From the NCBI RefSeq assembly GCF_900475595.1, contig NZ_LS483397.1:591001-655000 (forward strand): DNA of 64,000 nt, read 5' to 3'. Below are positions 50,705 to 52,074 of this stretch, one piece after another. This stretch comes from Streptococcus uberis (GTDB lineage Bacteria; Bacillota; Bacilli; Lactobacillales; Streptococcaceae). The notes below the pieces were generated by a model. The model worked only from the letters and a program-made list of their open reading frames with translations, did not search any database and was not told the origin of the DNA. Made by a program: the position numbers and the translations under genes. Position 1 is the stretch's first letter. Every line of letters begins with the position of its first letter.

Positions 50705-51626
50705 AAATTTTTTCCGTCATATTTGGGAATCTATTAAGAATCTCAAACGAAATATTTGGATGACAATTGCGGCAGTAAGTTCGGTTGCGATTACCTTAAC
50801 ATTAGTTGGTATTTTTGCAGCAACTTTATTAAATATTGACCGTGTTGCATCTGGTGTACAAAATAATATTCGAATCAATACCTATCTACCCGTTGACTCG
50901 ACTGATACTGCGAAAGTGGTTCAGACAGTTGAAGGTAAACAAGTTGATAACGAAAAATACCATAAGATATACGATAATATTAAAAAAATCAAGGGAGTTG
51001 ATAAAATCATCTTTTCAAGTAAAGATGAGCAGTTGAAAAAACTCCAAGATACTATGGGAGATGTCTGGAAAATGTACGACCAAGACACCAACCCTTTACA
51101 AGATATTTATATTGTTGAAACAGAAGAGCCGTCTCAGGTCAAACAAGTTAGCAAAGCCATTAAATCGCTTGATGGTGTTGAAGATGTCGACTACGGAGGT
51201 ATAAATTCCGATAAGCTCTTTAAATTCTCATCATTTATTAAGACATGGGGATTAGCAGGTACAGGTCTATTACTCTTAGTTGCGGTGTTCTTGATTTCCA
51301 ATACCATTCGAATGACCATTATGAGTCGTCAAAGAGATATTGAAATCATGCGATTGGTAGGAGCAAAAAATTCTTATATTCGTGGTCCTTTCTTCTTTGA
51401 AGGCGCTTGGGTTGGTTTCTTAGGTGCTATCATCCCTTCTTTAATTATTTATTATCTTTATGAGTATGCTTACCGTCAATTTACCCCACAATTACAATTA
51501 AATGGTTTATCCATGTATCCAGTTAACTATTATTTGTATATATTAATTGCTGTATTATTTATTATTGGTATTATCATTGGTTCGTTGGGGTCAGTTTTAT
51601 CCATGAGACGGTATTTGAAGTTTTAA
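50697..51626 (+). CDS. ftsX: Cell division membrane protein FtsX
   Basis: 309 residues from ATG at 50697 (MIRNFFRH), with GAAGGAGAG upstream inside ftsE. There are four membrane helices: one near 22-44, a large extracellular loop (about 45-175), then three C-terminal helices. The loop contacts PcsB-type hydrolases in streptococci. It is followed by the tandem structured repeats. Confidence 0.96.
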   Translation: MIRNFFRHIWESIKNLKRNIWMTIAAVSSVAITLTLVGIFAATLLNIDRVASGVQNNIRINTYLPVDSTDTAKVVQTVEGKQVDNEKYHKIYDNIKKIKGVDKIIFSSKDEQLKKLQDTMGDVWKMYDQDTNPLQDIYIVETEEPSQVKQVSKAIKSLDGVEDVDYGGINSDKLFKFSSFIKTWGLAGTGLLLLVAVFLISNTIRMTIMSRQRDIEIMRLVGAKNSYIRGPFFFEGAWVGFLGAIIPSLIIYYLYEYAYRQFTPQLQLNGLSMYPVNYYLYILIAVLFIIGIIIGSLGSVLSMRRYLKF

Positions 51627-51628
51627 CT

Positions 51629-51751
51629 TAGCAAGTTTATCTAATGATTGAAAATCATTGATAAACTACGGAAGCCGCTATGAGCGGTCTTCCTAGCTAA
51701 CTTACTAAGTCCGTTTTCAAAATAATATCGATTTTGAAAACTCCCTGTCGT
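51629..51751 (+). ncRNA. Structured repeat copy A (candidate small RNA)
   Basis: About 123 nt folding into three successive hairpins. H1: GTTTATC-T-AATGATT / AATCATT-GATAAAC (14 bp, one bulge). H2: GGAAGCCGCT / AGCGG-T-CTTCC (10 bp, one bulge). H3: 11 bp GTTTTCAAAAT / ATTTTGAAAAC with an AATATCG loop (51713-51741). A near copy lies 208 bases downstream, and a terminator follows. No family recognised. It could be a 3' element of the ftsX mRNA or a separate RNA. Confidence 0.6.
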
Positions 51752-51776
51752 AACTGTAAGAAATAGGGTGATTACA

Positions 51777-51816
51777 AAAAAGAGGATTTCTAAGTTTATT
51801 AGAATTCCTCTTTTAT
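51777..51816 (+). terminator. Terminator after repeat A
   Basis: A 16-bp stem (51777-51792 / 51799-51814) with a loop of about 6 bases and T-rich 3' arm. It also terminates prfB-ftsE-ftsX read-through. Confidence 0.85.
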
Positions 51817-51836
51817 GATGTCAATTCTTAATCGTA

Positions 51837-51960
51837 TAGCAAATTTATCTAATGATTGAAAATCATTGATAAACTACGGACTCCGCTATAAGGCGGTAAT
51901 CCTAGCTCACTTACTAAGTTGCCAAACCAAATGGAATCGATTTGGCTTGTCAACTGTCGT
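51837..51960 (+). ncRNA. Structured repeat copy B (candidate small RNA)
   Basis: About 124 nt. The first 44 bases match copy A with one difference. H2 and H3 keep their positions but differ in sequence: H3 is TTGCCAAACCAAAT / ATTTGGCTTGTCAA, pairing with two mismatches where copy A has an unrelated but complementary pair of arms. The ATCG in the H3 loop, CCTAGCT, ACTTACTAAGT and CTGTCGT are conserved single-stranded blocks. Stem covariation against conserved loops argues for selected RNA structure. Confidence 0.62.
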
Positions 51961-51969
51961 TGTTGTTTT

Positions 51970-52000
51970 AGAAGAGACTAGAGGGTCTTTTCTTTTTTTT
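51970..52000 (+). terminator. Terminator after repeat B
   Basis: A 9-bp stem (51970-51978 / 51985-51993, one wobble), TAGAGG loop, then eight T. It is 9 bases after repeat B, so the transcript would end here. Confidence 0.85.
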
Positions 52001-52040
52001 AGAGTATTCTATAGCTTAAATCGTTTGAATTTTATAGATA

Positions 52041-52074
52041 AAAGAGAAGACAATGGCATTGTCTTCTCTTTGCT
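52041..52074. terminator. Terminator of the MBL-fold gene
   Basis: A 13-bp perfect stem AAGAGAAGACAAT / ATTGTCTTCTCTT with a GGC loop, at the 3' end of the minus-strand MBL gene. Confidence 0.85.

Follow-up and report, generated by a model that had tools for sequence, protein, structure and literature searches.

The window, that is, the whole 64-kb stretch of Streptococcus chromosome analysed here, contains two related repeats, copies A and B, between ftsX on the plus strand and a convergent gene on the minus strand coding for a metallo-beta-lactamase-fold protein. Within the window, they are the sole matches to the covariance model of the family described below (E <= 0.001). Much of what an earlier note had described was confirmed: there are indeed two copies, whose first 44 bases contain a single difference, the blocks CCTAGCT, ACTTACTAAGT and CTGTCG are common to both, the hairpin it had counted as the third (here P4) is paired in A and B despite different arms, and its second hairpin (here P3) keeps the GGA...TCC frame. 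Over the whole units, 102 of 133 alignment columns are identical. The features of the locus are as follows.

51624..51627, plus strand: left-flank YAAN (TAAC), formed by the ftsX stop codon TAA and one further base (from the sequence, the open reading frame ending at 51626, and from the same placement at other loci)
51628..51750, plus strand: copy A, a complete family unit from TTAGC to GTCG (covariance model match, 121.6 bits)
51628..51632, plus strand: 5′ strand of P1, TTAGC (hand-drawn structure; helix 1, 94.0% of cells paired)
51634..51667, plus strand: P2 hairpin with one bulged T (helix 2, 86.0% of cells paired)
51670..51693, plus strand: P3 hairpin with loop TATGA (helix 3, 94.1% of cells paired)
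51696..51700, plus strand: 3′ strand of P1, GCTAA (hand-drawn structure)
51701..51708, plus strand: single-stranded CTTACTAA, its first 7 bases invariant across 17 aligned units
51713..51741, plus strand: P4 hairpin with loop AATATCG (helix 4, 93.6% of cells paired)
51747..51754, plus strand: unit end GTCG followed by the right-flank YAAN, TAAC (sequence and alignment of units)
51775..51817, plus strand: hairpin behind copy A with a T-poor tail, a weak intrinsic terminator or none (fold; not called in the scan)
51836..51959, plus strand: copy B, a family unit whose P1 is decayed and whose left side lacks YAAN (covariance model, 89.2 bits)
51970..52001, plus strand: intrinsic terminator behind copy B, stem 51970-51993 and T run (terminator scan)

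Copy A begins directly after its TAAC left flank. Both copies fold better than their shuffled counterparts, with a z of -6.6 for copy A (none of 200 shuffles as good) and of -3.4 for copy B (one of 200). A fourth helix had been overlooked in the earlier note: TTAGC (51628-51632) pairs with GCTAA (51696-51700) and closes a three-way junction, which is intact in copy A and decayed in copy B. The claim that each copy is followed by its own terminator stands for copy B, where one was called, and fails for copy A, where the hairpin has a T-poor tail and was not called (the stretch from 51770 to 51822 folds at -18.2 kcal/mol). Beyond the terminator of copy B, a strong terminator-like hairpin of 14 pairs (52041-52071) lies between the two convergent genes. 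The scan for promoter-like sites found none on the plus strand between 51008 and 52675 and, in the stretch as a whole, fewer than in shuffles (9 vs 12.0). A weak promoter-like site (9 of 12) lies on the minus strand inside copy A, at 51722-51751.

The family unit, of about 120 nt, consists of a three-way junction formed by P1, P2 and P3, followed by CTTACTA, the hairpin P4 and GTCG. Searching with copy A by blastn gave matches in 51 of 197 genomes sampled from the genus, and 17 members taken from these matches, A and B included, were aligned (alignment A2; an eighteenth, L032, was left out). On this alignment a structure was drawn by hand, with P1 closing the junction with P2 and P3, then CTTACTAA, P4 and GTCG. 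Of its 645 cells, 91.2% are paired, falling to 41-42% when the pairing is slid by one column. Changes at both sides are observed in 35 of the 38 pairs and amount to 201 cells vs 58.9 +- 6.8 after shuffling, a massive covariation that bears out the earlier claim and whose distance from every control is large, even if the structure was drawn on the same sequences and the shuffles ignore relatedness. An additional pairing of TTAC with GTAA around P4 was not counted as a helix, as variants ending in GTCGCAA break it on this strand. No known RNA family had been recognised previously, and Rfam 15 agrees: there is no relevant match at E values up to 5 between 50000 and 54000, and none at the gathering score in eight family loci.

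The family extends well beyond this genome, confinement to which the earlier note had counted as an argument against its own proposal. With the covariance model R1 (E <= 0.001, the best 12 candidates scored per genome), it is present in 255 of 284 Streptococcus genomes. Copies were counted by scoring the best 150 candidates per genome. By this count, the present genome has 12 units, falling into 8 sites, S. sobrinus (G098) has 126 and 124 in two runs and another genome, G036, has 114, while 16 others, selected since most had reached 12 of 12 candidates, have 13-22 each. Of a further 18 Streptococcus genomes that were rescored, mostly ones with no earlier match, 17 have no copies and one (G175) has a single copy. 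Among the 17 are G015, G018, G005, G012 and G004, which gave the next-best ftsX matches in one sample; G193, from outside that sample, does have a unit behind ftsX (L003). Sampling the order gave matches in 26 of 198 genomes, 25 of them Streptococcus and one of another genus, and sampling the class Bacilli gave matches in 16 of 299 genomes and 1 of 118 genera, none outside Streptococcus. The one match from another genus of the order (L156, G422:C1:580063-580186, minus strand) is single and weak (E 6e-6), its ends read GTAAC| and GTCG|CAAC, and it is possibly a transferred or an older member of the family. Using the 332-bp stretch from A to B as the query against its own genome returned only that stretch, where the covariance model finds 12 units, and no match to the repeats was obtained in phage and plasmid collections.

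Where the units start is far from arbitrary. Among 142 distinct units, from loci chosen by match score and hence not a random sample, 47 lie inside arrays. A stricter count took 83 first units and sense open reading frames of at least 100 codons; in 47 of the 83, the start is no more than 4 nt away from the stop of a sense gene. In 37 of these the unit follows the stop codon plus one base, in 8 the stop codon lies inside P1 (as in AAC|TAG at grpE), and one each is at 0 and at -8. None of the other first units begins 5-17 nt behind a stop codon, 1 does so at 18 nt, 3 at 21-100 nt and 11 at 101-300 nt; 21 of the 83 have no sense stop within 300 nt. At the other end, an antisense stop within 20 nt of the 3′ end is seen in 0 of 53 units with no further unit downstream. 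When YAA[CGT] sites in a stretch of about 63 nt are taken as equally likely targets, 49 of 51 units are at a stop vs an expected 14.5 (both strands) or 25.7 (sense only), the 49 sites not being independent, as they belong to 15 upstream genes by protein clustering. Read by eye from their C-termini, these genes are nrdE, grpE, prfC, dnaK, groEL, parE, argS, obg, ftsX, ruvA, pheS, purF, corA, a PTS IIB gene and one for an ATPase subunit. In this genome, the sites at stops are those behind nrdE, parE, purF, obg, corA and ftsX, and the two that are not at stops lie before metK and at 313695. Part of this sharpness could stem from selection against units inserted elsewhere. No target motif beyond YAAN was established from the last codons of the upstream genes.

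Many other units lie in BOX-like surroundings; GTGTTCAAC and TACTTTCTAAC are examples of their left flanks. Facing units, arranged around module-like inserts, were seen in those loci of S. sobrinus that were read. Over one 1.8-kb stretch, G036 matches S. sobrinus at 92% identity; of 20 loci fetched from it, 8 (L252, L255, L256 and L260-L264) begin with TACTCAAT(A/G)AAAATC, the first base being A in L252 and L261; six of these eight have the right end GATTTT(T/C)GAAGAGTA. We take these left and right ends to be the BOX signature. For copies A and B, by contrast, no such end was found: none of 27 end-like matches falls within the window.

A YAAN tetranucleotide is present at both sides in 49 of 146 distinct units. 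The left and right YAAN are the same in 24 of these, vs 16.6 expected (p 0.003 in a permutation that leaves relatedness uncontrolled), and the position of the Y agrees in 41. The sequences are thus compatible with a possible four-base target duplication. Among 14 grpE sequences the left and right YAAN differ in several, so the insertions at this gene are not recent. In tandem arrays, the next unit sits behind the GTCG of the preceding one. Two arrays stand out: behind obg, L126 (G213:C36:19400-23000) holds at 1467-1975 three near-identical tandem units of equal score, spaced by 198 bp, and is a possible variable-number repeat locus, and behind nrdE of this genome, L115 (G000:C1:1262700-1266100) holds three at 1475-1853, of which the second and third are nearly identical and have no normal P1/P2.

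The occupancy of individual sites varies between species. At prfC, where 24 of 25 fetched Streptococcus loci have a readable gene end, a unit is found at the same place in 10, and in the remaining 14 the gene is followed directly by a terminator, by a BOX-like repeat or by some other sequence. Close relatives may also have different units behind the same stop codon, with a unit identity of 0.61 at a third-position identity of 0.94 for groEL, of 0.69 at 0.92 for prfC and of 0.57 at 0.82 for nrdE; other orthologous pairs retain 0.96-1.00. Additionally, there are mosaics in which P1-P3 of one subtype are joined at CTTACTA to the P4 of another (L131 behind groEL and L146 behind prfC). At ftsX, L003 is 0.86 identical to copy A and differs mainly in P2, and single compensated pair changes are observed in the P4 of L218 and L219. 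Such in-place replacements and mosaics indicate that the sites persist while their sequence is exchanged. In L168 (S. suis HN129), a long insert interrupts the P2 region at about 2180-2370, and the orthologous S. suis loci L175 and L180 are uninterrupted.

Between grpE and dnaK, for 14 distinct sequences from 21 loci tried, the 118-nt unit is 98.9% identical vs 86.7% for the last 300 nt of grpE and 66.1% for the third codon positions of this gene. The value for the unit is biased upwards because the loci were obtained through BLAST plus an exact pattern and only units with one start sequence were kept. Downstream, identity amounts to 85.3% over the adjoining 40 nt and to 64.8% over the 80 that follow, and the edges of conservation coincide with those of the unit. 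Conservation of the unit thus far exceeds that of its flanks, which suggests that it has a function at this place. Three grpE loci (L009, L012 and L097) hold another subtype. In two papers on pneumococcal small RNAs, neither grpE nor dnaK is mentioned in the available part of PMC2887815, nor grpE in that of PMC6212727, which means little because PMC2887815 excluded regions internal to operons as well as BOX and RUP repeats.

The strong covariation raises the question of the level, DNA or RNA, at which pairing is maintained. Pair types were counted in 57 members, obtained by thinning the 100 best of alignment A3 to less than 90% identity. P1, P3 and P4 together have 1315 Watson-Crick, 15 G-U and 12 A-C cells; with P2, which was counted apart because a bulge misaligns its inner pairs, the numbers are 1868, 56 and 40. 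The 80 best rows of A3 were also folded, without thinning; in the minimum-energy structures, G-U makes up 51 of 3119 pairs (1.6%), compared with 3.9% on the other strand and 12.8% in mononucleotide shuffles. The RNase P RNAs of the genus, of which 25 were folded, have 354 G-U among 2741 pairs (12.9%), and 9.2% on the other strand. According to the part of PMC8794818 available to us, the common view is that RNA helices change by way of G-U, and neither strand of the family helices does so. As G-U is as rare as A-C and the helices are nearly pure Watson-Crick, the counts suggest that pairing is kept at the DNA level, an argument from the base composition of the helices, not from transcripts. Such upkeep would most simply come from a need for DNA hairpins, from the correction of palindromes via template switching or from the exchange of modules. 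The family may therefore serve as a warning: where pairing appears to be maintained on DNA, covariation, however strong, is not in itself a sign of a functional RNA.

We consider A and B to be same-orientation copies of a short BOX-like DNA repeat, mobile but not autonomous, that occurs almost throughout Streptococcus, and we assign this reading a probability of about 0.7; on this evidence, the repeats are palindromic DNA, most likely mobile, rather than two small RNAs. This reading is favoured by a distribution that is nearly genus-wide and patchy, by the many copies, by the nearly pure Watson-Crick pairing with G-U as rare as A-C, by the sharp placement at stops, by a prfC site filled in 10 of 24 loci, by the exchange of modules and by the BOX-like composites of S. 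sobrinus and G036. There is also a published parallel, as 36 pneumococcal BOX repeats encode the stop codon of a gene according to the available part of PMC3049150. Against it, we count the weak evidence of target duplication (24 identical vs 16.6), the conservation at grpE-dnaK, the lack of BOX-like ends at A and B and a Y1 transposase that does not track with the units (see below); no autonomous parent, helper enzyme, transposition event or near-identical pair of empty and filled sites was found in this analysis.

What the units conserve is a set of DNA palindromes (the three-way junction, CTTACTA and the fourth hairpin) ending in GTCG, and many units have a YAAN tetranucleotide on either side. 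Where the surroundings are not BOX-like, the left YAAN is mostly the TAA stop of a conserved gene that is in sense orientation. The gene is thereby kept whole, with the unit forming the beginning of its mRNA 3′ end; insertions at stop codons may be tolerated because the gene is left intact. An enzyme that handles folded single-stranded DNA would place the unit at YAAN, and arrays would grow by further insertion behind GTCG. P2, or P1-P3 relative to P4, is swapped between units, with the sequence turning over and the pairing persisting. A side effect on mRNA 3′ ends is possible, in that the hairpins may protect transcripts or separate them from one another, a role that has been suggested for REP and BOX repeats. 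More tentative, and on balance doubtful, is an elaborate version in which an enzyme directs integration to sense stop codons through the folded single strand of the unit and a YAAN target, with units re-inserted or replaced throughout the genus at nrdE, grpE, dnaK, groEL and prfC, and fixed as part of the 3′ end at grpE-dnaK.

Three other explanations have to be weighed against mobility. Unlikely, in our opinion, is a cis-acting element of mRNA 3′ ends or intercistronic regions, selected as RNA, that would stabilise or process the message behind the stop codon, for instance in grpE-dnaK. Its sense orientation at stop codons and its strong folding (z -6.6 and -3.4) would be expected of such an element, as would the 98.9% identity at grpE-dnaK vs 66.1% at grpE third positions (14 sequences, a sample biased upwards), but it is difficult to reconcile with the near absence of G-U on both strands, with replacement units only 57-69% identical between close relatives at prfC, nrdE and groEL, and with a prfC site that is empty in 14 of 24 species. 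We find it quite improbable that the units are old, immobile palindromes of gene 3′ ends whose pairing is kept by template-switch mutation or gene conversion, with no transposition. Template switching can both create and mend stems, as described in the available part of PMC8794818, and the two arms do change together, either as blocks (P2 of the ftsX units) or as single compensated pairs (P4 of L218/L219); however, the conserved loops and CTTACTA, the 114-126 copies in two species and the sites filled or empty among species would be left unexplained. Template switching or gene conversion may nevertheless be how pairing is maintained.

The proposal of the earlier note, a duplicated, trans-acting small RNA or riboregulator, is the one we can scarcely credit. 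The structure and the terminator behind copy B speak for it, but the scan revealed no promoter-like site on the plus strand near the units, Rfam contains no match, and the number of copies (124-126 in S. sobrinus), their start at stop codons and the BOX-like composites are those of a mobile repeat. It was abandoned mainly because G-U is nearly absent on both strands: a structured regulatory RNA would be expected to tolerate G-U in the helices of its transcribed strand, and the family contains hardly any (1.6% vs 12.9% in RNase P RNA).

The mobile repeat proposed here resembles several known systems. Integron attC sites are folded single-stranded sites beside a gene's stop codon, with AAC at the boundary, and the family is likewise folded beside a stop codon with AAC at the boundary; unlike attC, it has four helices and is flanked by direct YAAN repeats, not by inverted core sites, and no cassettes were seen. 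Non-autonomous elements derived from IS200/IS605 have folded single-strand ends with a bulged base and insert beside a fixed tetranucleotide, and the family is also folded, has a bulged base and lies next to a fixed tetranucleotide. No Y1 transposase, however, is resident in this genome or in three others that bear copies (G126, G297 and G148), and no arrangement of such ends with a gene was seen. Of 18 genomes with copies, 14 have the enzyme, as do 10 of 17 without them, which is no clear link, and a resident Y1 transposase was rejected as the helper; it is not needed, and past mobilisation by one is possible.

We know of no explanation of what moves BOX-like repeats or why they lie at gene 3′ ends. 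The question becomes testable with a unit that occurs almost throughout the genus, whose fold is clear and whose boundaries are sharp, which follows a simple rule of stop codon and sense orientation, and which is present in some species and absent from others. REP sequences tagged with GTAG or CGTC (PMC3733652, in the part available) are, like the family, palindromic and extragenic, with a fixed unpaired tetranucleotide at one end, and those tagged with CGTC have no known transposase according to the same part. By contrast, they measure 20-40 bp, whereas the family has about 120 nt and four helices, its tag is GTCG (CGAC on the other strand), and Streptococcus is not among the phyla named in that part of the source; the family thus lies outside the REPs as recognised by a GTAG/CGTC tag and a palindrome of 20-40 bp.

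The titles and abstracts found in searches of open-licence literature described neither the fold of the family nor a stop-codon rule for it. The available part of PMC3049150 (Croucher et al., 2011) likewise contained no solo form, four-helix fold, comparable range or exact stop-codon placement. BOX-type repeats are described there as nearly confined to S. pneumoniae, S. mitis and S. suis, whereas the family is nearly genus-wide, and copies A and B, unlike BOX elements, stand alone with no BOX-like ends. Kinship to the pneumococcal BOX-PCR primer sequence was rejected, as it had no match in 264 loci, either exact or with up to 3 substitutions. According to the same source, however, the BOX-type elements of S. 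suis have boxE (mean 115 nt) and boxF (133 nt) as their outer modules, and the family has their size, is streptococcal, modular and folded, lies at gene 3′ ends, sometimes supplies the stop codon and, in G036, occurs inside composites with BOX-like ends. The earlier statement that no known insertion element is involved is consequently doubtful: BOX is the closest family, and, on a comparison by name, order and mean length, description rather than sequence, the units are perhaps the boxE/boxF modules of S. suis.
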